Source: Chitinophaga chungangae (lineage in GTDB: Bacteria > Bacteroidota > Bacteroidia > Chitinophagales > Chitinophagaceae). Taken from it: a stretch of 64,000 nucleotides of DNA. The notes beneath the pieces are model-generated. The model was given only the letters and a program-made list of their open reading frames with translations. It was not told where the DNA came from and made no database searches. Positions 1-20,284 of this stretch are shown here, piece by piece. The stretch lies in assembly GCF_017742215.1 (NCBI RefSeq), contig NZ_JAGHKP010000002.1, positions 778,737 to 842,736 on the forward strand, given 5' to 3'. How positions within the stretch are numbered: the stretch's first letter is position 1; each line of letters opens with the position of its first letter. The translations under genes were made by a program, and so were the position numbers.

Positions 1-704
1 GCATGGAGCCGAAGTATTACGCCGCGGGCATCAGGGCGTATTACAAAGGCGTGAAAGGCACGCATGCAGACAGTTTCATCGAGCTGCACTTCCTCAAGAA
101 CCTGCTGCCGGGCTACCTCTGGATCTTCCCGCTGCCCAACGGCGAAGCCAACGTAGGCATGGACATGCTCAGCGACGCCGTGCGCGACCGGAAAGTGAAC
201 CTGAAACAATTGCTTACCGATACGCTCAAACAGGACCCCGTTTTCGCGGAACGTTTCCGCGACGCGGAAATGACCAGTAGCCTCGACGGTTATGGCCTTC
301 CGCTGGGCTCCAAAAAACGCAGGCTTTCCGGCAACCGCTACATGCTCGTGGGAGACGCTGCTTACATCATCGACCCGTTCACGGGAGAAGGCATCGGCAA
401 CGCCATTTACAGCGGCGCCATTGCCGCGAAGCAGGCCGCGGCCTGTCTTGCCGCAGGCAACTTCGGCGAAGAGATCATGATGGCGTACGACGAAAGCGTA
501 TACCGTGTGCTGGGCCCTGAACTGAAACTGAGCTACAAACTGCAGCAGCTCGTGAAATACCCGCGCCTGTTTAACTGGCTCATGAAAATGGGCATGCGCA
601 ACAAGCAGCTCCGCGACGTGATCTCGAGCATGTTTTACGAAGTGGACCTTCGCAAGAAACTGACCAAACCTTCCTTTTACGTCAAACTTTTACTGAACCG
701 GTAA
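1..704 (+). CDS. Geranylgeranyl reductase-like FAD oxidoreductase, 3' part
   Basis: The gene is cut by the left edge, so its N-terminal FAD-binding Rossmann segment is missing. What remains is the C-terminal ~234 residues. The second FAD-contact motif of the p-hydroxybenzoate-hydroxylase fold is clear (YMLVGDAAYIIDPFTGEGI, Gly-Asp about 117-118 residues after the first visible Met). Proteins of this family (geranylgeranyl reductase / FixC-like) reduce or hydroxylate lipids such as isoprenoid chains. The exact substrate cannot be told from this part. The next gene starts 5 bp downstream, which suggests co-transcription. Confidence 0.8.
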   Translation, partial: MEPKYYAAGIRAYYKGVKGTHADSFIELHFLKNLLPGYLWIFPLPNGEANVGMDMLSDAVRDRKVNLKQLLTDTLKQDPVFAERFRDAEMTSSLDGYGLPLGSKKRRLSGNRYMLVGDAAYIIDPFTGEGIGNAIYSGAIAAKQAAACLAAGNFGEEIMMAYDESVYRVLGPELKLSYKLQQLVKYPRLFNWLMKMGMRNKQLRDVISSMFYEVDLRKKLTKPSFYVKLLLNR

Positions 705-4845: not shown

Positions 4846-6564
4846 TTATTGTACAGGCACAGCCACTGCAGAATCCACGATAACGTTCGCGTCAACGGTA
4901 GAATCTGTAGCTTGCTGGCTTCTGCTGTCAAATTTATTCGCTTCGTAGTAACCCCACATTTTTTTGGTGAAGTTTACCATCTGCGCCAACGTGTTCTGGC
5001 TTTCATTTTTGAAGTTCAGTTCCAGTACGGATTTCTGCGTGTTGCCGCTGAAAGGCTCGGTGGAAACGGTCAGGTTTTTCAGCAGGCCTTTGATATCGTT
5101 GGAAATGCTGTCGGGCAGTTCTTTCAACGATTCTTCAGGCATGTTGTTCACAATTTTCTCGATATCGAGATATACGCTGAATACGCTGCCTTTTGCGGCG
5201 TTCACTGCTACGTCGTCGAGCTTGGCTTTGGATTTGCCGGCGTCGTAAGTGGTCAGCAGCGCTTCGTCTGACGCCACCAGGATGCGTTTATCGTTGATGG
5301 ACAGCGCGATTTCGCCGAGCGGTTGCTGGGGAACGTAGTTTTCGCCCACTTTGGTAAACATCGGGGCTACCATTTTGCTGCTCATCACTTTTTCGAAAGC
5401 GGCCTTGTCGCCCACTTTCATATTGAACACGAATTTGATGTCGGGTTTCTGGGCGGCGGAAGTTGCGGAAAAGTCCGAGCCTACAATGGCGAGCTCGCCT
5501 TTGAAAGCTTTTAATATGTCGTCGAGCGTGAGCTGCGCTTCAGCGAGGCCCATGTTGGCGAAACCGTCCATGCCGAGGAGTTTCAGGATGTCGCCCAGCA
5601 TGCGCAGGTCGAAGTTCATGATGGCGAAACCGAACACGTTCCCGGAAGGATAGTTCTCGATCATGTCCATGTTCACTTTCTCCATCGGGTATTTCTTCAT
5701 GATGTCCTGCATTTCTTTACCCGCGTAAGATTTGCTGTTCACCTTGATCTTGCCGTTCTCGAAATGGATGGCGGCGGCGGTGTAAGCGCCTTCGGTGAGT
5801 TTTTTGATATTGCCGGTCATCAGCGCGGCCATACCGGAAGGCGTGCCGGGATTAAAGGCGTATACCTGTTCGCTGCTCATCCAGAAAAACGCGTCGCCTT
5901 TTTCTTTCTGTACTTCTTTGAAAGATTCAACGGTCGCGATGGATTCGTCTTTTTTCAGGTGGAACAGTTTGTTGAGCGTTTCGGTGTTGTTGGCGGTTTT
6001 AGCCGGTGCGGGAGCCGCGGCGGCGCTGTCGCCGAAATCGTCCATGGCATACGGGTTATGGCGCTCGAAGTCGGTGGGGTCGAACGCGAATACGCCGATG
6101 ATGGTTTCGTTGCTGAAACCGACGATGGCGTTTTTATCTTCCACGTATTTAAAATCGGTGCCTGCTTTTACTTCTTTTTTTGATTTCTCCTTGATAAAAG
6201 CTTCGAACTTGGCGGCGTCTTTCAGTTTGGCATAAGCGGCCACATAACCTTTGGCGCCGGCTTCGCCGGGAACCATGGCGATGAATACGTCGCCTTTCAT
6301 ATCTACGCCTGAGTTTTCGGCATCTTTCATGGCTTTGGCCAGGGAGCTGGAGGTATCCTGGGATTGCACGGCGTCGAACAGTTTATCGACCGTAAGCCCG
6401 TCTTTCACCAGTTTTTCCTGGATCTGCTCGGAGTTTACGCCCAATACCATGGCCGCGTTTTTGGGAATATGTTTACCCTGTTCCGGGGTTTTGGAACAGG
6501 CGGATAACAATAACACCGCTGCTCCTGATAAAACAAGCAGTGTTCTGGAAATCATTCTTTTCAT
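4846..6564 (-). CDS. DUF4836 family lipoprotein
   Basis: A 572-residue protein with a lipoprotein signal peptide (LLLSAC, lipid-modified Cys23). The mature part opens with HIPKNAAMVLGVNSEQIQEKL, which matches the start of DUF4836 proteins of Bacteroidota as I know them. They are long alpha/beta repeats of unknown role at the cell envelope. The C-terminal third is rich in Lys and Asn and ends in a low-complexity Asp/Val/Ala tail. It has its own terminator and is divergent from the YciI gene, so it is probably monocistronic. Confidence 0.75.
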   Translation of the reverse strand: MKRMISRTLLVLSGAAVLLLSACSKTPEQGKHIPKNAAMVLGVNSEQIQEKLVKDGLTVDKLFDAVQSQDTSSSLAKAMKDAENSGVDMKGDVFIAMVPGEAGAKGYVAAYAKLKDAAKFEAFIKEKSKKEVKAGTDFKYVEDKNAIVGFSNETIIGVFAFDPTDFERHNPYAMDDFGDSAAAAPAPAKTANNTETLNKLFHLKKDESIATVESFKEVQKEKGDAFFWMSSEQVYAFNPGTPSGMAALMTGNIKKLTEGAYTAAAIHFENGKIKVNSKSYAGKEMQDIMKKYPMEKVNMDMIENYPSGNVFGFAIMNFDLRMLGDILKLLGMDGFANMGLAEAQLTLDDILKAFKGELAIVGSDFSATSAAQKPDIKFVFNMKVGDKAAFEKVMSSKMVAPMFTKVGENYVPQQPLGEIALSINDKRILVASDEALLTTYDAGKSKAKLDDVAVNAAKGSVFSVYLDIEKIVNNMPEESLKELPDSISNDIKGLLKNLTVSTEPFSGNTQKSVLELNFKNESQNTLAQMVNFTKKMWGYYEANKFDSRSQQATDSTVDANVIVDSAVAVPVQ

Positions 6565-6680
6565 AAAGAGAAAGATGTTAAATGGATTTGAGAATTACGG
6601 GTAAAAATAACGGGTTTTTTGCTAATACGTTTAAATTTGTTCTTATCTAGGGCAAACCCCGCTACTTTCAACAATTTGTC

Positions 6681-6688
6681 TACCTTTG
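6681..6688 (+). promoter_or_regulatory. Candidate -7 promoter box for the YciI gene
   Basis: TACCTTTG matches the Bacteroidota -7 consensus TAnnTTTG exactly and lies about 43 bp before the ATG at 6732. No clear TTTG -33 element is seen at 19-21 bp upstream. Confidence 0.4.
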
Positions 6689-6731
6689 CATATATCTGAA
6701 TTTTAACCATTTACTGAAGAACCGTTTCATT

Positions 6732-7013
6732 ATGTACCTGATTCTTTTGCAGTACATCCGCCCTGTTGCGGCTATTGAGCATTATATGGCCGCGCACAAC
6801 GCTTTCCTGGAAAAACAGTACCGGGAAGGAAAATTCATCATTTCAGGCCGGAGGAAGCCCCGTACGGGCGCCATCATTTTATGCCGCGCGGGCAGCCGCC
6901 GCGAAGTGGAGGCAATCCTGGCGGAAGACCCGCTGGATAAATTCCAGCTGGCCGTGTACGACATCATCGAATTCGAGCCGAACACCTTCGAAATGGCCGA
7001 TATCAGTTCCTGA
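6732..7013 (+). CDS. YciI family protein
   Basis: A 93-residue cytoplasmic protein of the YCII/dimeric ferredoxin-like family: YLILLQYIRP at the start, the conserved His at about 17 and 22 (EHYMAAHNAFL), and a Gly-Ala-Ile-Ile-Leu strand followed by a DPLDKFQLAVYDIIEFEP end. The family has a conserved His-Asp pair suggesting an enzyme, but for most members the reaction is not established. It stands alone, with a good -7 promoter box upstream. Confidence 0.85.
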   Translation: MYLILLQYIRPVAAIEHYMAAHNAFLEKQYREGKFIISGRRKPRTGAIILCRAGSRREVEAILAEDPLDKFQLAVYDIIEFEPNTFEMADISS

Positions 7014-7403
7014 GCCGTTCCTTTTTATGTTTTTGTTGTTCCCGCTTCCGCCCCCGCGGCCTGCATTGCTCATGCACCGTACCCTTCACGCCTTAATGCT
7101 TCCGCGTCTTTTCCACCGGTATCCCTGAATCAGGTTTAATTCTTCAATTTCAATTCCCTATTAATAAAAATATACACCAGGGCCGCGCCGCAAACCGGCA
7201 TAACGATACGAACGCTTATATGGAACGCGGTTATTAATGATACAGGTAAAAAGGAAAAAGGCCGGCTGTGTGGATCGCCGGCGCTTTCTTTTTCGTTTCC
7301 AGGAAATACTTGTGAATGATTTTACGCATTATGGTTGGCTAAAAACCCAGCTCCGGCCGCAACGGGCGTTGTGCCGTACATACATACAGTCAGGTAGGGT
7401 GTC
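7014..7403. other. Gene-poor stretch between YciI and MsrB genes
   Basis: About 390 bp without a convincing gene. The short open frames here lack a family match and run through the hairpin at 7257-7293. I see no tRNA-like fold or repeat. Apart from that hairpin the stretch holds nothing I can name. Confidence 0.5.
7257..7293 (+). terminator. Possible terminator hairpin
   Basis: AAAG-GCCGGC (7257-7266), a 10-nt loop, then GCCGGC (7277-7282), a bulged G, CTTT and a T-rich tail. It could end the YciI transcript, though it lies about 240 bp past the stop codon. Confidence 0.4.
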
Positions 7404-7955
7404 TTATTCTTTTTCTTTGTACTTCTTTTCGACCTCTTTCGCCTTTTCAAAATCGAGGATCACCGAATTGATGCAATAACGCAAGCCTGTTGGCGGAGGC
7501 CCGTCGTCGAAAACATGTCCCAGGTGAGACTTGCAGCGGCCGCATTGTACTTCGGTACGCTGCATGCCGTGCGAATTGTCCGGCGTATAGATCACGCTGG
7601 TTTTGCTGATGGGCTGGTAAAAGCTCGGCCAGCCACAGCCGCTTTCAAATTTGGTGTCTGACACGAAGAGCGGATTGCCGCATGCTGCGCAATAGTAAGT
7701 GCCTTTATCCTTCGCATTCCAGTACTTACCCGTAAAAGCCCATTCCGTGCCCTTTTCACGGGCAATATCATACACATCTTTGGGCAAAAGGTTTTTCCAT
7801 TCTGCATCTGTTAGGTTTACTTTACCAGTATCCGTGCGGGAGTACACCGGATTCTTTTTTTCTTCCATTGTATTGGTTTTTTTCCCGTTTTGAGAGTATG
7901 TGCAGTGGCTGATCAGTAACGTCAGCCCTAAAATTAGAAGATTCCACAATTTCAT
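7404..7955 (-). CDS. msrB: Peptide-methionine (R)-S-oxide reductase, exported
   Basis: MsrB reduces methionine-R-sulfoxide in proteins. The 183-residue product has both zinc-binding CxxC pairs (Cys89/92 and Cys138/141), the GCGWPSF motif, [10 protein letters not shown], and the catalytic Cys161 in RYCINS. An N-terminal hydrophobic segment (residues 4-22) indicates export. A Cys at 18 could make it a lipoprotein, but the preceding His is unusual for a lipobox, so a periplasmic or anchored form is open. It protects envelope proteins from oxidation. It is divergent from mutL. Confidence 0.93.
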
Positions 7956-14022: not shown

Positions 14023-14069
14023 CATAGCGGCACGTTATAGGAATAATCACCCTATAATTTGCCGCTATG
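14023..14069. repeat. Large inverted repeat ending on a start codon
   Basis: The 19-nt arms CATAGCGGCACGTTATAGG (14023-14041) and CCTATAATTTGCCGCTATG (14051-14069) pair at 17 of 19 positions plus one G-T, around a 9-nt loop. The right arm ends exactly on the ATG of the first outer-membrane-protein gene and contains TATAATTTG, a -7-like box. No T-run follows, so it is not a standard terminator. It could be an operator or an RNA hairpin hiding the start codon. Confidence 0.8.
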
Positions 14070-14747
14070 AAATTTCTGACAACCTGCCTGTTACTCCTTG
14101 CCTGTACTGTCGCCCATGCGCAGCAGACGGTCAACGACCGGATATTCGACAAACACCACCAGCTGAAACTCTCCGTGATGGCTCAGCTCGACCCTGTTAA
14201 CCCCGGGTGGGACCTCAGCTATGAATTTCAATATGCCAAAAGATGGGCCTCACAGGTCAATTATACCTGGCTGACCGACCACATATTGGCATATGCGACT
14301 AACCGGGGAGAACCTCCGTATATCAGTTTGGAAGGCCGGCGGATCGGTATTGAACAGAAGTTTTTTTACCCGGAAAAACGCTCTGTACGCGTGCGGGAAT
14401 ATTTTGGCCTCAACCTCAATTATCTCGAAACACGTACCGTAAGCAAGCCCGATCTGAAAAGCAAGCTTGAACCGGGCGTTTTTATCCCCCCGGCCGGAAC
14501 AAGAAGCACGGACCGCTATGTGTTTTCCACCAATTTCAAATTCGGTTTCGAAATACCGCTATGGCGCGGTTTTTTGCTCGACATGAGCGGAGGCCCGGGC
14601 ATCAAGTACCGCGAAGTGACCAATACCTACAGCAATCCGGATATCACAGAAGCGCTCGTTGAATGGGATATCCTGAACCGGTATAACCCAACGAAAGAAT
14701 GGACGGGTACTTTCACGTTCGATATCAAGATCGGGTACATGTTTTAA
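14067..14747 (+). CDS. Outer-membrane-type beta protein, copy 1 of 3
   Basis: A 226-residue protein with a signal peptide ending AHAQ. The mature part has alternating hydrophobic/polar strands, many aromatics and a C-terminal GYMF, all typical of a small outer-membrane beta-barrel. I do not recognise a named family. It shares with the next two genes the signatures HHQLK, DPVNPG, ELSYEFQYA-RWASQ, GRRI--EQK-FYP, DR--FS-N-KFGFEIP and GPG-KYR-V-N. The start codon is the end of a large inverted repeat. Confidence 0.75.
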   Translation: MKFLTTCLLLLACTVAHAQQTVNDRIFDKHHQLKLSVMAQLDPVNPGWDLSYEFQYAKRWASQVNYTWLTDHILAYATNRGEPPYISLEGRRIGIEQKFFYPEKRSVRVREYFGLNLNYLETRTVSKPDLKSKLEPGVFIPPAGTRSTDRYVFSTNFKFGFEIPLWRGFLLDMSGGPGIKYREVTNTYSNPDITEALVEWDILNRYNPTKEWTGTFTFDIKIGYMF

Positions 14748-14765
14748 ACGGTTAACGCCATGCTT

Positions 14766-15443
14766 ATGAAGCTTTTTACATTCTTAATCCTGCTTTTTTC
14801 CGCCTGCAATGCCGCGCATGCGCAAAAAGCGCCCAATAACCTCATATTCCCTTATCACCACCAGCTGAAATTTTCTTTGTTTCCTACGCACGACCCTGTT
14901 AACCCGGGTTTTGAGCTCAGTTATGAATTTCAATACGCAAGAAGGTGGGCTTCACAAATCGGGTATACGGTTCTTTCCAACGGTATTCACGAATTGTTCG
15001 ACGATAACGATGAATTTTACGACTTCAGCGGCAGGCGCATCAGCTTCGAGCAGAAATATTTCTACCCGGCCAAACATAATTATCCGTTCCGCAAATATTT
15101 TGCGCTGGACCTGAACCACCTCAAAGCCCACACTACCAGCGTGATCTTGTACGAAATCACCATGCACCCCAATGATCCGGTTGTGCTACCGGACAGGATG
15201 AATATCGAACGCAGTACGTTTTCCATCAACCTGAAATTCGGCTTCGAGATCCCGATCCCGAAACACTGGATGATGGATATTTCCTTTGGGCCGGGCTTCA
15301 AATACCGCAAGGTATCCAACGACTTTGCCCCGCGTTATAGTTCCTATATCCACGGTGGCAATTGGTTTACGGACCGCTATACGCCGATGGAGGACTGGGT
15401 GCCGAATATTGCGTTTAATGTCAAGATCGGGTATATGTTTTGA
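14766..15443 (+). CDS. Outer-membrane-type beta protein, copy 2 of 3
   Basis: A paralogue of the gene before it, 225 residues, same signal-peptide pattern (ending AAHAQ) and same GYMF end. I chose the second ATG (14766) because it lines up with the short signal peptides of the other two copies; the ATG at 14760 is also possible. It lies 18 bp after copy 1, so the genes are probably one transcript. The central loop carries a run Asp-Asp-Asn-Asp-Glu not seen in copy 1, so the exposed loops seem to be where the copies differ. Confidence 0.75.
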   Translation: MKLFTFLILLFSACNAAHAQKAPNNLIFPYHHQLKFSLFPTHDPVNPGFELSYEFQYARRWASQIGYTVLSNGIHELFDDNDEFYDFSGRRISFEQKYFYPAKHNYPFRKYFALDLNHLKAHTTSVILYEITMHPNDPVVLPDRMNIERSTFSINLKFGFEIPIPKHWMMDISFGPGFKYRKVSNDFAPRYSSYIHGGNWFTDRYTPMEDWVPNIAFNVKIGYMF

Positions 15444-15470
15444 AACAAATGACCGCAACAATCCGTCACC

Positions 15471-16124
15471 ATGAAATATATCGTCCCTGTATTGTTACTC
15501 TTTGCCTGTACCGTCGCACACGCTCAAAACGTCAGTAAAAACACCATTTTCCCACATCGCAACCAGTTGAAATTTTCTTTGTTTCCCCTGCACGACCCGA
15601 TCAATTCCGGCCTGGAATTCAGCTACGAGCGCCAGTATAGCGAGCGATGGGCCACACAGCTTGCTTTCACCGTATTGTCTAACGGCCTGCATGAATTATT
15701 CGATACGGAAAAGGAATACCATGGCTTTAAAGGCCACCGCATCAGCATCGAGCAGAAATGGTTCTATCCCGGGCGCCGCGAACGGCAGATCAGGAGATAT
15801 TTTTCCCTGGATGTCAATCGCCTCGAAGCCCACACTATCCGTACCACGTACAGCGACACTGCGCCGGTGAATCCCGTGGACCGTATGAACATCGATCGCA
15901 CGACGGTTTCGGTGAATTTTAAATATGGCCTTGAAATCCCCGTGAAGAAGCGGTTCCTGCTCGACCTGAGCGCCGGGCCGGGCGTGAAGTTCCGCAAGGT
16001 GTTCAACGACAAAAACTATGTCGGCGGCTGGCGGTCTGATTGGGATGTGGACAAGATCTTTGCACCGGGGAAGGAATCGACGGGCAATTTTGTAGTGAGC
16101 GTGAAGATCGGGTATATGTTCTGA
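15471..16124 (+). CDS. Outer-membrane-type beta protein, copy 3 of 3
   Basis: The third tandem paralogue, 217 residues, signal peptide ending in AHAQ. It keeps the shared barrel signatures (HRNQLKFSLFPLHDPINSG, RQYSERWATQ, EQKWFYPG, DLSAGPGVKFRKV, KIGYMF). It looks closer to copy 2 than to copy 1 in the N-terminal half (FSLFP, VLSNG.HELFD). The function is unknown; binding or uptake at the outer membrane is a guess. It is followed 54 bp later by an AraC-type regulator gene on the same strand. Confidence 0.75.
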   Translation: MKYIVPVLLLFACTVAHAQNVSKNTIFPHRNQLKFSLFPLHDPINSGLEFSYERQYSERWATQLAFTVLSNGLHELFDTEKEYHGFKGHRISIEQKWFYPGRRERQIRRYFSLDVNRLEAHTIRTTYSDTAPVNPVDRMNIDRTTVSVNFKYGLEIPVKKRFLLDLSAGPGVKFRKVFNDKNYVGGWRSDWDVDKIFAPGKESTGNFVVSVKIGYMF

Positions 16125-16178
16125 CGGCGGGAAATTCGAATAAATGCCACATATTGCAGCTGCAGTAATTTACCCGGC

Positions 16179-17039
16179 ATGAACTTCAGTTACAAAAACA
16201 ATAAAAAAGGATCGGAACTAAGGCTGGTTCTCGAAGAAGCGCATTTTGACAGGATCTTTTACGGGAAAGACCTGAAGGATAAACTGCTGACCATCGCCTG
16301 GAACCGCGGCCCCGCACAGCAGGTCACCATCGACGGCGTGGCGTATACCTTCGGGGAACATACCATACTGCCGCTTATGGTGAACCAGAGCTTCGAGTTC
16401 GCTTCCCCGGCGGACATTACCGCCTGGCAATTTAACCGCGAGTTTTATTGCATCGTCGATCACGACAAGGAAGTGAGCTGCGCCGGCTTTCTTTTTTACG
16501 GCTCCGCCGAACAGCTTTTTATTGCGCTGGATCAAAAGGACGAAGAGAAGCTGGCTTTGCTGCTGCGGGTATTCCTGGATGAGTTCGAAACGGACGATAA
16601 TATCCAGGGAGACATGCTGCAGATGCTGCTCAAGCGGCTGATCATCATCCTTACCCGCCTTGCGCGCGGGCAATTCGTTACCGGTCAGCCGCTTACGGAA
16701 GACAAGATGGACATTGTGCGCAAATACAACATGCTGGTGGAAAATCATTATAAAAAGGAGCACCGCGTGAGTTTTTACGCGGAAAAGCTGCACCGTTCGC
16801 CCAAAACGCTTGCTAACCTGTTCGCTATTTACAATCGTAAATCCCCGCTGATGGTGATCCGGGAAAGAGTGCTGCTGGAAAGCAAGCGCCTGCTGATGTA
16901 TACGGACAAATCCGCCAAGGAAATCGCCTACGAGCTTGGGTTTGAGGACGCAGCTTATTTCAGCAAGTTCTTCAAACAAAACGCCGGCCAGTCCCCTTCC
17001 GATTTCAGAAATTCAAAAGACCCGTTAACCCGCAACTAA
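16179..17039 (+). CDS. AraC-family transcriptional regulator
   Basis: A 286-residue regulator. Residues ~1-160 form a ligand- or partner-binding domain without clear family match, and the C-terminal ~100 residues are the AraC double helix-turn-helix (KLHRSPKTLANLF, then SAKEIAYELGFEDAAYFSKFFKQNAGQSPSDFR). The second motif is nearly textbook. The N-terminal domain, with REFYCIVDHDKEVSCAGFLFYG, is the type found in Bacteroidota AraC regulators that sit next to AhpD-like genes. It probably controls the AhpD-like gene 136 bp downstream; this is inferred from position only. Confidence 0.92.
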   Translation: MNFSYKNNKKGSELRLVLEEAHFDRIFYGKDLKDKLLTIAWNRGPAQQVTIDGVAYTFGEHTILPLMVNQSFEFASPADITAWQFNREFYCIVDHDKEVSCAGFLFYGSAEQLFIALDQKDEEKLALLLRVFLDEFETDDNIQGDMLQMLLKRLIIILTRLARGQFVTGQPLTEDKMDIVRKYNMLVENHYKKEHRVSFYAEKLHRSPKTLANLFAIYNRKSPLMVIRERVLLESKRLLMYTDKSAKEIAYELGFEDAAYFSKFFKQNAGQSPSDFRNSKDPLTRN

Positions 17040-17175
17040 ATCCCGAAAATTCCCGGCCGGGAAAAAACAGCAAGTTTTCAGGAAGTCCTTCCATTTTCCA
17101 CCCTCCGGGAATGGATGACCTTTGTTACGTCAACAAACACAAAAAACGAATTCAAAAATCGTAAAACATAACAAC

Positions 17176-17724
17176 ATGAAAACTTTCAACGTCCCCGCCA
17201 GAGAACAGGTATCCCTCAATAACCAGGCTATTTTCGACAACCTCAAAAAAGTGGTAGGTTTTGTACCGAACCTCTATGCTACTTTCGCGCATTCTGAAAA
17301 TGCGCTGGCCAATTACATGGCATTGCAGAGCGGCAAAACGTCGCTGAAAGCGAAAGAAAAAGAAGTGGTGAACCTGGTAGTGAGCGAAGTGAACCAATGT
17401 GTTTATTGCCTGAGCGCTCACACTGCCATCGCTAAACTGAACGGTTTTACGGAAGACCAGATCCTGGAGATCCGCGCGGGTGAGATCACTTTCGACCCGA
17501 AGCTGGACGCGCTGGCTAAACTGGCGAAAGGCATCGTGGAAAACCGCGGTCATGCCAGCGATGAAACGATCGGCAATTTTTATGCGGCAGGTTACAACGA
17601 AGGCAGCCTGGTGGACGTGGTAGTGCTGGTGGGAGATAAGATCATCACCAATTACCTGCACGCGCTTACCAATATCCCTGTAGACTGGCCGCTGGCGGCA
17701 AAACTGGAAACCGCAGTTCAATAA
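17176..17724 (+). CDS. Carboxymuconolactone decarboxylase / AhpD-like protein
   Basis: A 182-residue helical protein with the AhpD thiol motif: Glu71, Cys75-x-x-Cys78, His82 in SEVNQCVYCLSAHTA. AhpD-like proteins use this pair to reduce peroxides or partner thiols. I chose the ATG at 17176 because the 18 codons before it are Lys/Gln/Asn-rich and lie in the leader. There is no signal peptide. It is downstream of an AraC regulator and converges with the TIR-like gene at only 12 bp distance. Confidence 0.9.
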   Translation: MKTFNVPAREQVSLNNQAIFDNLKKVVGFVPNLYATFAHSENALANYMALQSGKTSLKAKEKEVVNLVVSEVNQCVYCLSAHTAIAKLNGFTEDQILEIRAGEITFDPKLDALAKLAKGIVENRGHASDETIGNFYAAGYNEGSLVDVVVLVGDKIITNYLHALTNIPVDWPLAAKLETAVQ

Positions 17725-17736
17725 GTTTCGTAAGCA

Positions 17737-18408
17737 TCAGGAACCAACATAAGAGCCGGCCTGGTTTTCCTCCCGGAAAGCCGGGCCTGGTTTTGTCGAT
17801 TCGTAGATCGTACCTTCAACGATCATGCAAAAATCGTTAAACGTCATATTGCCTTCTTCCAGCCCAAGCTTTTTTAACGCCCTTGGCAAACTCCTTTCGA
17901 ACTCACGGTATTCCCGTTTTAACGTCCCGGTACCGGGAATCGCCGCTCTTCGCGATGCTGTTTTTAACCAGTCACGCACTTTTTCAATGATCTTGTCGTG
18001 ATCGTTGTCATGCGCTTTTGTATCGATGCCGCTAAGATCTGAAATGTATTGCTGGTAGAGATACTTCGTCCGTTCGAATACAAGTCCGGATTTTGTTTTC
18101 TGTTCCCTGTTCCCAAAATGTTTTGCCGCAAGGAACAATCCTGCTTCAAACGGCATATTGAACCTGGGCAGGCCCCTGCTGTTCACTTCGATCCGAGAAA
18201 TATCATGAATCCCGTACCGGCAATCCGCAATGCACCGCAAAATTTTATGCAACCGGTTATCTGTTCCGTCATCCTCGTTTAATGCCGTGATAGGACTAAA
18301 ACCGCACCTGTAAATAACGAATACCATGGCGTACAGCAATGGCCTGTATCCGTCGTCGAAGGGGCAGTTTATAAAGACTTTGTCGTCGTACGCATGGGTT
18401 AACTGCAT
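17737..18408 (-). CDS. TIR-like / nucleotide-binding Rossmann-type protein, function unknown
   Basis: A 223-residue cytoplasmic protein that I recognise only as a widespread hypothetical. It opens with a strand KVFINCPFDDGYRPLLYAMVF (from residue 10), followed by CGFSPITALNEDDG, CRYGIHDISR (63-72) and LPRFNMPFEAGLFLAAKHFG (80-99). The order strand, short acidic turn, later Asn-x-x-x-Glu-x-Gly-x-x-x-(G/A) helix parallels TIR-like and nucleoside-deoxyribosyltransferase-like folds; Glu88 would be the catalytic residue. A basic, helical C-terminal half follows. A role in signalling or defence is inference. Confidence 0.5.
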   Translation of the reverse strand: MQLTHAYDDKVFINCPFDDGYRPLLYAMVFVIYRCGFSPITALNEDDGTDNRLHKILRCIADCRYGIHDISRIEVNSRGLPRFNMPFEAGLFLAAKHFGNREQKTKSGLVFERTKYLYQQYISDLSGIDTKAHDNDHDKIIEKVRDWLKTASRRAAIPGTGTLKREYREFERSLPRALKKLGLEEGNMTFNDFCMIVEGTIYESTKPGPAFREENQAGSYVGS

Positions 18409-18443
18409 AAATTTCCTGTAAAATGGCTGGTTAAATCCGGCGG

Positions 18444-18570
18444 TTATTCCGGCTTAATATGCTTGTCTCCGTCGGCCTTCTTCGCCGCTTCGACACGCAT
18501 CTCCCAAAAAACCGCTTTTACCGCCGCCTTTATCTTTGCAGCGGGTATCGAGGTCTTTCTTTTTACTCAT
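18444..18570 (-). pseudogene. Small basic protein gene with one-base frameshift near its start
   Basis: From the stop at 18444, one frame reads back 40 codons as a coherent small charged helical protein ending VFWEMRVEAAKKADGDKHIKPE-like (shown in part: EAAKKADGDKHIKPE). Its only good ATG (18570, start Met-Ser-Lys) is in another frame. Removing one base from the five-base A-run of the mRNA (five T at 18560-18564) joins them into a 41-residue protein. It is either a sequencing error, a real mutation or, less likely, ribosomal slippage on the Lys codons. It lies 35 bp upstream of the TIR-like gene on the same strand. Confidence 0.5.
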
Positions 18571-18643
18571 TTTAATTTTATTTGTTTCATATTCCGAAGT
18601 TACCAAAATCTCTTTTTCAACTTCGAAAATTGCGCGCGTTTTT

Positions 18644-20284
18644 TTAATGCACATTTTCCCTGAACACCCTGTTCAGCCAGCGCAGCATTACGAAAATGAG
18701 CCCCGCTGCAAATCCCAGTAGCACAAAGTTCACCAGGAAATAATTTATCTTGTTGTCGTAAGTATCCCACATCGCGGCAAGCACGCCGGATAATTTATTA
18801 CCGATCGAAGTGGCCAGGAACCAGCCGCCCATCATCAGCGAAGTGAAACGCGGCGGGCTGAGCTTCGATACAAGAGAAAGCCCCATCGGGCTAAGCAGCA
18901 GCTCTCCCGCGGTGATCACGCCGTAACAGCCGAACAACCACCACATCGACGCTTTTTCCGCGCCGTTGTTACAAAAATATACCGCGGCCACCATCATAAA
19001 AGTGGACAACGACGATATCAGCAGGCCCCACGCAATTTTCGTGGGCGTGCTCGGCTCCCGGTTGCGCCTGCGCAGGAACGCAAAAAAGGCCACCACCAGC
19101 GGCGTAAGAATGATCACGAAAAACGGGTTCACCGACTGGAACAGTTCCGTATTCACCACGCTGATGCTGCTGCCTTCTGCAGGCATATGCTCCGGCGCCA
19201 CATTCTTCAGATATACCGGCACGCCGATTTCTTTTACAGGCTGGCCGCTTGCATCTTTTATCACCCTGAACTCATGATCGTACGCCACTACCGAATCGGT
19301 TTTATTGGTCACCGTTTCGGCGAGGAACAGCGACTGCGCGGGCCTTTCAATCGCCGGCGACAACTCGCGGTCTGTATAGAACTGCGCCCAGGTGGTTAGC
19401 GCGGTGCCGTTTTGTTTGAACACGGCCCAGAACATGACGGACACTGCAAAGATCGCCAGCAGCGCTTTTACGGGCTGTTTATCGCCGGCGCTGGCTTTAC
19501 GCAGCAGGTTGGCAAAGAAATAAATGATGGGAAGACAGGCGAATATAAATGCGTCCGTAGAATCGGAACCGAAAATGCTGCCGGGTATCACCCAGCCGAT
19601 GTACCCCGCCACCAGCACGGGCAGGAACACCTGCGCGAAAATGCTTCCCAGCGGCATATCATCCGGCTGCGCGGGTTTCGGCACATCCGCGTGTTTATAA
19701 TGTTTCAGTCCCGCGATAAAAATGATCACGCCGAGGAACATGCCGATGCCGGCGGCAATAAAGGCCGCGCCCCAGTTGATGCTGTTGCGCAGGTAGGCGG
19801 CAAAAAAGGTGCAGATGAACGCCCCGATGTTAATGCCCATGTAAAAGATATTGTACCCCGTGTCTTTCTGCGGTTTGTACTGCGGGTCGTTGTACACGTT
19901 GCCCAGCAGGGTGGAAATGTTGGGCTTGAAAAAGCCGTTCCCCACGCAAATGAGCGCGAGCGAAAGGTAAAATACCGTCAGATTTTGAACGGACAGCCCG
20001 ATGTAGCCGATGCCCATAAGCACGCCGCCGATGATGATCGATTTAGAATAACCCAGTTTGCGGTCGGCCAGCAGGCCGCCCACGAAAGGGGTGAGATAGA
20101 CGAAGGCGATGAAGGTGCCGAAAATGTCCACGGCCTTTTTCCGGTCCATGGCCCAACCGCCGCTTTCCGCATCCGTCAGGTATAACTGGAGAATGGCCAG
20201 CAGCAGGTAAAAGCCGAACCTTTCCCACATTTCGGAAAAGAATAAAAAGGGTAACGCAACGGGATGCTTGCGGTTAGACGACAT
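18644..20284 (-). CDS. POT family proton-coupled peptide transporter
   Basis: This major-facilitator protein imports di- and tripeptides with protons. The 546-residue product has the proton-coupling ExxER motif in FFSEMWERFGFYLLLAIL, the GGLLADRKLGYSK loop, and the FYMGINIGAFICTF segment of the POT signature, with 12-14 membrane helices. I chose the ATG at 20284 (MSSNRKHP), as the earlier frame overlaps a promoter-like region. A periplasmic insert of about 80 residues (near 300-380) is longer than in many family members. It would take up products of the exported peptidases in this window. Confidence 0.92.
   Translation of the reverse strand: MSSNRKHPVALPFLFFSEMWERFGFYLLLAILQLYLTDAESGGWAMDRKKAVDIFGTFIAFVYLTPFVGGLLADRKLGYSKSIIIGGVLMGIGYIGLSVQNLTVFYLSLALICVGNGFFKPNISTLLGNVYNDPQYKPQKDTGYNIFYMGINIGAFICTFFAAYLRNSINWGAAFIAAGIGMFLGVIIFIAGLKHYKHADVPKPAQPDDMPLGSIFAQVFLPVLVAGYIGWVIPGSIFGSDSTDAFIFACLPIIYFFANLLRKASAGDKQPVKALLAIFAVSVMFWAVFKQNGTALTTWAQFYTDRELSPAIERPAQSLFLAETVTNKTDSVVAYDHEFRVIKDASGQPVKEIGVPVYLKNVAPEHMPAEGSSISVVNTELFQSVNPFFVIILTPLVVAFFAFLRRRNREPSTPTKIAWGLLISSLSTFMMVAAVYFCNNGAEKASMWWLFGCYGVITAGELLLSPMGLSLVSKLSPPRFTSLMMGGWFLATSIGNKLSGVLAAMWDTYDNKINYFLVNFVLLGFAAGLIFVMLRWLNRVFRENVH

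Follow-up and report, generated by a model that had tools for sequence, protein, structure and literature searches.

A TIR-like protein and a small basic partner as a candidate two-gene abortive-infection module, probably decayed in Chitinophaga chungangae

The locus analyzed here lies in a stretch of 64,000 nucleotides of the Chitinophaga chungangae genome (contig NZ_JAGHKP010000002.1, positions 778,737 to 842,736 of the forward strand), hereafter the window, and centers on an intact minus-strand open reading frame (ORF) for a TIR-like protein, hereafter the effector (Table 1). The plus-strand reading of the same interval in the same frame contains stops and is not open. Between the effector gene and a transporter gene, we identified the remnant of a small partner gene, and both belong to a larger accessory segment together with two further genes, which we take to encode an AraC-type regulator and a carboxymuconolactone-decarboxylase-like protein. 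The effector is a single-copy gene in its own genome (6.04 Mb, 14 contigs). Its surroundings in the window do not have the appearance of a defence island. The view of the original prediction that nothing in the neighbours proves a function holds for the window itself. The plus strand of the window also carries, at 14067-16124, three tandem paralogous genes for proteins of approximately 220 amino acids with signal-peptide-like starts and ends of the form KIGYMF; genes akin to these adjoin the transporter gene in two other genomes, G003 (L177) and G012 (L180).

Table 1. Coordinates of the features discussed in the text; numbers without a locus prefix are window positions, and L followed by a number denotes a locus in another genome, plasmid or contig.
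Feature	Location	Strand	Remarks
Effector ORF, TIR-like	17737..18408	minus	ATG at 18408, 223 aa, stop 17739-17737
Effector architecture	core to about residue 152; helices 160-180 and 190-205		predicted model: TIR-like core followed by two C-terminal helices
Partner remnant	18444..18590	minus	48 codons and stop; reads MKQIKLK, stop, VKRKTSIPAAKIKAAVKAVF...
In-frame TGA, codon 8 of the partner remnant	18567..18569	minus	from frame reading and comparison
Accessory segment	16125..18640		effector, partner remnant and two further genes; unmatched next to the transporter gene of G003
Diversity-generating retroelement cassette	L085:2823-12705		reverse transcriptase 6439-7752 (by motif), template repeat near 6386-6510
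DUF2188 followed directly by a gene for a patatin, KAP NTPase, AAA_13 protein or pPIWI-associating nuclease	L156:1686-2714, L157:1679-2746, L154:1-1449, L149:1-1449, L153:1726-3180, L147:1758-2603		

The motifs and residue numbering given for the effector in the original prediction are correct, namely K10-VFINCPFDDGY-21, C63-RYGIHDISR-72 and P81-RFNMPFEAGLFLAAKHFG-99. Across 23 diverse homologues picked by hand, 18 columns are invariant (F12, N14, P16, D18, G36, R52, H68, D69, S71, R82, N84, M85, P86, E88, G90, D124, G127 and D129). Four residues had been singled out for a test of conservation, and three of these, Asn84, Asp69 and Glu88, are identical in all 23 rows, whereas Cys63 varies, being Cys, Ser or Ala among the aligned homologues. 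For the pair formed by the window protein and its closest homologue (locus L002), pN is 0.22 and pS is 0.83. The presence of homologues in several phyla, the invariant columns and the excess of pS over pN confirm that the effector ORF is a real gene beyond chance.

The effector family is spread sporadically. Among the relatives, 9 of 148 genomes have a homologue, and so do 34 of 395 genomes sampled from the window's phylum (the own genome included in both counts) and 8 of 398 genomes from the phylum of Bordetella ansorpii (G148, locus L016; this genome included). In genome contigs, 11 homologue loci come from Bacteroidota, Betaproteobacteria and metagenome-assembled genomes named Gemmatimonadetes and Deltaproteobacteria, and 17 plasmid records with homologues, 8 of which are typed as conjugative, all belong to alphaproteobacterial genera. 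A profile scan yielded 11 further homologue loci in contigs of a viral collection; a scan of the viral contigs with the single effector sequence gave none, and none were found in phage records. Several copies are truncated or carry stops. The genome nearest by the transporter gene (G003; 96% identity, the best of 60 genomes searched after the own one) lacks a match to the stretch at about 16125-18640 in the 1.5 kb downstream of that gene, and a 68% identical effector is encoded on a different contig of G003. The sporadic spread, the truncated copies and the absence beside the G003 transporter gene are the pattern of an accessory gene.

The AlphaFold model of the effector is confident (pLDDT 87.3, pTM 0.84) and contains a Rossmann-like core of alternating beta strands and alpha helices of approximately 140 residues. 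Its catalytic-type helix bears E88, which is present in every one of the 23 rows and is matched to the glutamate of CAP12-type TIR domains. Such a core and such a glutamate are the two hallmarks of the superfamily that unites TIR domains and nucleoside transferases. Structural alignment of this model with VIA-align gave Z scores of 11.9 for the TIR protein of SPARTA (rmsd 2.8, 137 residues aligned), 11.8 for DNPH1, 11.6 for AbTir and 10.9 for MilB, of which the first three are ties. In a Foldseek search of the PDB, the top rows are SPARTA TIR-APAZ, TIR-STING (20-22% identity) and plant TIR domains, followed lower down by nucleoside deoxyribosyltransferases and response regulators; none of these PDB matches falls under an E-value of 1e-3 (best 1.2e-3, with a probability of 1.00). 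Because TIR domains and DNPH1-type hydrolases tie within one Z unit, the substrate cannot be told from the fold alone. The assignment of a TIR-like or Rossmann fold made from the sequence is thus borne out by a confident model that matches TIR and nucleoside-hydrolase structures, and the two results that would have spoken against it, an unrelated fold and a lack of conservation of Glu88, were both looked for and not seen.

Sequence searches relate the effector to a specific branch of TIR domains. The protein has no convincing family in Pfam, NCBIfam, PADLOC-DB or PHROGs, nor a convincing match to any natural protein among the PDB sequences. Weak hits to DUF5975 (E 0.19), phrog_13827 (E 0.099) and phrog_8657 (E 0.16) were dismissed as chance. 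With phmmer, residues 133-201 matched Top7, a designed protein, and relatives of it at E-values down to 0.0052, which we attribute to a charged helical stretch and disregard; a search of the PDB with the effector profile returned a single row at E 0.93. By contrast with these, hhalign aligned the effector family with a profile of CAP12/Pycsar-type TIR domains (10 domains, from 10 of the 15 places found) with a probability of 94% and an E-value of 9.8e-8 over 69 columns. In this alignment, RFNMPFEAG of the effector lies on RDNVVFELG and, downstream, SDLSGI lies on TDLLGL, so that the invariant R82-N84-E88-G90 corresponds to the R-D-N...E-x-G signature of the CAP12/Pycsar domains. When the comparison was rerun with controls, the score was 48.2, whereas none of 100 column shuffles exceeded 20.3 and the reversed alignment reached 11.7. 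The proposed parallel between the Asn-x-x-x-Glu-x-Gly helix and the catalytic-glutamate helix of TIR domains therefore stands, with Asn84 and Glu88 placed on that helix in CAP12/Pycsar proteins. Since the corresponding glutamate is catalytic in TIR NADases, Glu88 is the putative catalytic residue of the effector.

Other profiles delimit this relationship. A TIR_2 profile built from 9 sequences does not match the effector family (P 0.1%), although the CAP12-type profile itself does match TIR_2 (P 86%), and the effector profile matches neither of the two deoxyribosyltransferase sequences with which it was compared. Among the Pfam families detected in 22 effector members, PF05014 (nucleoside 2-deoxyribosyltransferase) is absent, CAP12-PCTIR_TIR (PF10137) is found weakly in 7 (best E 0.0043), and, of the canonical TIR families PF01582 and PF13676, PF01582 appears in just one (E 0.0045); the window protein is not matched by PF10137 at E-values up to 1. 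Given the strong profile relation and the weak Pfam matches, the effector family adjoins the CAP12/Pycsar TIR branch without scoring as a member of PF10137. We consider the TIR-like fold and the catalytic-type residues of the effector to be highly probable.

Examination of the regions upstream of the homologues revealed a small co-directional ORF directly preceding the effector gene. We counted as a partner any ATG-initiated ORF of 40-140 amino acids whose product has a pI of at least 9.3 and whose stop lies between 130 nt upstream of the effector start and 15 nt inside it. Such an ORF is present at 61 of 65 effector loci (all but L036, L053, L074 and L075), a count that slightly exceeds the true partner frequency because L054, L055 and L057 are included with an upstream ORF of another kind. 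The same definition is satisfied by 60 of 212 control genes at far loci of the same contigs and by 46 of 207 other genes near the effector, when the first start codon of each control ORF is used (for effectors, the start nearest the motif was taken); a more generous control that admits any start within 50 codons gives 65 of 193 and 51 of 181, respectively, and leads to the same conclusion. At L074 and L075, a TIR-like ORF takes the place of the partner (at L074, only its end is covered). A TIR-domain-like ORF of 239 amino acids (by motif) lies upstream of the homologue at L075, and at L042 and L060 such an ORF is found one gene further upstream. Thus, the statement that the neighbours prove nothing does not extend to the homologues, in which the upstream gene is near-constant and informative, and the linkage between effector and partner is, in our judgement, very probable.

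The 62 partners, which were picked by eye and include a few near-duplicate loci, are proteins of 47-138 amino acids with a pI of 9.3-12. At Pfam E-values up to 0.001, 23 of the 62 belong to DUF2188 and 2 to SWIB/MDM2; the remaining partners are grouped as a residual short, basic class, and a helix motif of the approximate form (S/T)xxx(I/V)xxAVxxh recurs in many of them. With leave-one-out profiles, the short-class partner ranks first among the surrounding ORFs in 27 of 38 cases. Among the 11 misses, the partner at L002 is beaten by an ORF taken as its tandem copy, and those at L042 and L072 are DUF2188-type proteins that had been placed in the short class; with 8 real failures left, the short class cannot be taken as a single proven family. 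At L034, a DUF2188 domain and the short-class helix motif are joined in one protein. The closest homologue of the window effector is preceded by two tandem partner copies (L002:1101-1490). In all 12 partner pairs compared, pN is lower than pS, which shows that the partners are evolving as proteins. On an effector tree of 66 rows, labelled by eye with everything other than DUF2188, SWIB, fusion or TIR scored as short, the partner class changes 5 times, compared with a minimum of 4 and a mean of 25.7 for shuffled labels; the partner class follows the effector phylogeny. A model of DUF2188 gave nothing convincing against the PDB (best Foldseek E 0.12, best VIA Z 5.5), and we do not claim AcrIF5 as a structural relative at a Z score of only 5.5. 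Because this model matches nothing solved, the suggestion that the partners bind nucleic acid comes from their charge and the SWIB name; in the mechanism proposed below, the partner would probably contact nucleic acid or a phage product.

In the window, the partner appears to be interrupted. The remnant is collinear with MSNIVLKSAKRKTTVSRSKVRAAVSAAF in L003 and with the partners of L002, L004 and L007, and from its sequence it seems to resemble the short class. The partner profile, run against the own genome at E-values up to 1, hit a single place (G000:C7:797204-797380, equivalent to window 18468-18644), with a weak E-value of 0.033 and with TGA and TAA codons within the span. An initial reading of the remnant as a frameshift in an A-run was dropped because the comparison with L002, L003, L004 and L007 gives one collinear frame across the in-frame TGA. 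Read in this way, the partner frame is broken by the TGA, at which a sequencing error or recoding is possible. The effector frame beside it is open, an arrangement seen in this one genome. Given the TGA in the partner frame and the absence of the segment at the same place in G003, the nearest relative, the copy in C. chungangae is probably a decaying, recently gained module in which the effector frame is still open.

In one family group of homologues (L053, L054, L055 and L057), the TIR-like domain continues into a formylglycine-generating enzyme (FGE)-type domain of the C-lectin kind. The same fusion gene as at L055 is seen in a wider context at L085:8220-9608 (Pfam FGE-sulfatase, E 9.5e-42), within a diversity-generating retroelement cassette (Table 1) and between two large NTPase-FGE genes named by motif. 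For both NTPase-FGE genes, every mismatch between the gene end and the template repeat falls on a template adenine (11 of 11 and 18 of 18). For the fusion gene, only 15 of 35 mismatches are at template adenines, and we do not classify it as a variable protein of the retroelement. Reverse transcriptase motifs are present at a second fusion locus, L086; a motif search found none at L087 and L088, the latter of which has an apparent reverse transcriptase fragment. In conflict systems, retroelements have been described as targeting C-lectin proteins that carry NTPase, TIR or peptidase domains (PMC10907252, PMC7159879).

Two defence candidates of PADLOC recognize the partners: PDC-S16 matches 23 of 62 (best E 2e-36) and PDC-S38 matches 2 of 62 (best E 4.7e-20), and because these tallies equal those of DUF2188 and SWIB, we take the matched proteins to be the DUF2188 and SWIB partners, respectively. 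Such candidates are presented as unvalidated, often single-gene and found by guilt-by-embedding (PMC12988326). None of 20 effector members matches a PDC model, and one of the 20 matches the generic TIR effector model (E 0.01). Around 20 effector loci, PADLOC families number 16, against 6 at far loci, with 138 ORFs in each set; at two of the near loci (L113 and L121), the effector frame was not recognized, so that some ORFs there may be in the wrong frame. These numbers are too few for a claim of defence-island enrichment. On plasmids, the annotated neighbours of homologues include a restriction endonuclease, a RES-family NAD+ phosphorylase with its companion gene, AbiEii-type genes and a RecB-like nuclease (L028:8114-8989, L027:1011-2413, L029:8734-12141).

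Searched for by itself, DUF2188 was detected in 37 of the 198 genomes examined from the phylum. We fetched 30 of its loci and located the ORF by motif in 20. In these, an uncontrolled list, the gene after DUF2188 encodes a member of the TIR-like family in 2 cases, a patatin in 2, an AAA_13 protein in 2, and a KAP NTPase, a pPIWI-associating nuclease, an RNase H, a HAD family protein and a sub-threshold UDG in 1 case each; in the other nine, it is housekeeping-like, short or without a name. DUF2188 may thus be a general companion of conflict effectors.

We propose, with a probability of roughly 0.6, that the effector is a TIR-like N-glycosidase of a two-gene, TIR-type abortive-infection module that has probably decayed in C. 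chungangae; a role of such modules against phages is somewhat more probable than its converse. In the intact modules, a small, strongly basic protein (DUF2188, SWIB/MDM2 or short and lysine-rich) would be encoded first and the TIR-like enzyme immediately after it. The partner, made first, would serve as the sensing and regulating half that either keeps the enzyme inactive or licenses it. A phage cue would then relieve or trigger the enzyme, which would assemble upon infection and, through Glu88, might break the N-glycosidic bond of NAD+ or a related nucleotide, and this cleavage would lead to arrest of the cell.

The tight co-directional gene pair, with the small gene first, abutting the larger one on the same strand, also has the layout of type II toxin-antitoxin systems, and the partner is basic. 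The partner could then be an antitoxin that directly neutralizes a TIR-like toxin, the pair being an addiction element carried by plasmids and mobile islands for which phage defence is only a by-product. The difference in partner class between deep clades of the effector and the presence on 17 plasmid records (8 typed as conjugative) fit such an element. We nevertheless regard this explanation as unlikely. In the window, the effector is open and the partner is interrupted, the opposite of the order expected of a strict toxin, which speaks mildly against a strict antitoxin, bearing in mind that this is one genome in which a sequencing error is possible; furthermore, the genes that follow DUF2188 include RNase H, HAD and UDG-like ones, which are not obvious toxins.

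The near-equal structural scores of TIR proteins, DNPH1 and MilB (Z 11.9, 11.8 and 10.9) raise the alternative of a metabolic enzyme, that is, a nucleoside or nucleotide N-glycosidase of the DNPH1, MilB or deoxyribosyltransferase kind that sanitizes modified nucleotides, the more so as DNPH1 and MilB employ a glutamate on the corresponding helix. A housekeeping enzyme is a poor fit to the sporadic presence of the family (9 of 148 relatives, 34 of 395 genomes in the phylum), its truncated copies and plasmid carriage, the near-constant basic partner and the lectin fusions beside a retroelement, and the profiles find CAP12-type TIR domains, not the two deoxyribosyltransferase sequences tried, all of which makes this alternative improbable. 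Less probable still is that the TIR-like protein makes a messenger of the cyclic-ADPR type for an effector encoded elsewhere, with the partner regulating expression only. Stand-alone TIR proteins do make such messengers in Thoeris, where ThsB has this role, but the seven annotated plasmid neighbourhoods contain no constant downstream effector gene, and the near-constant neighbour is instead the small upstream gene.

Beyond the two-gene abortive-infection module itself, we tentatively suggest, as an idea that has somewhat less than an even chance, that DUF2188, SWIB and the short lysine-rich proteins serve as exchangeable front-ends in an immune architecture of the plug-in type, in which one sensor or adaptor gene lies directly upstream of one of several killers, such as the TIR-like NADase, patatin phospholipases, KAP and AAA ATPases and pPIWI-associated nucleases; one lineage would join the TIR-like enzyme instead to a lectin domain of the type mutated by diversity-generating retroelements. 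PDC-S16 and PDC-S38 are so far untested database candidates that lack a mechanism. Should the small protein be only half of a system, the other half would often be an unannotated TIR-like enzyme, which would turn these candidates into two-gene modules with a named putative catalytic residue, and DUF2188 would gain its first functional setting, as a swappable companion of several effector types.

Among open-licence full texts, searches for DUF2188 together with a TIR domain, for SWIB together with a TIR domain in an anti-phage context, and for PDC-S16 and PDC-S38 returned nothing, and no work on the function of DUF2188 was found, as judged by titles; in this literature, we found no description of the effector family or of its association with DUF2188, SWIB or other short basic partners. 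TIR effectors in two-gene systems are a known kind. The present family can be compared with several known systems. The models of PDC-S16 and PDC-S38 match upstream partners of the homologues (23 and 2 of 62), and the proposed module includes a TIR-like enzyme that fits no PDC model (0 of 20 members). The effector is of the same fold class as DNPH1, MilB and the nucleoside 2'-deoxyribosyltransferases, with tied or near Z scores, and differs from them in genomic context and in the lack of a profile relation to the two sequences compared. With SPARTA, in which a TIR effector acts with a separate nucleic-acid-sensing protein, the family shares a core that is among the best structural matches (TIR-APAZ of the short prokaryotic Argonaute system, Z 11.9); it differs in the size of the effector (223 amino acids), its C-terminal part and a basic partner of 47-138 amino acids, and none of the seven annotated plasmid neighbourhoods names an Argonaute. 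Like the CAP12/Pycsar TIR domains (PF10137), the effector has a TIR-like fold with R-x-N-x-x-x-E-x-G on the catalytic-type helix followed by (S/T)D(L/I)xG; unlike them, it lacks a Pfam match, is a stand-alone domain with two C-terminal helices, carries its own NCPFD, R52, HD(L/I)SR and GxDxxxH signatures, and has a separate small basic partner.
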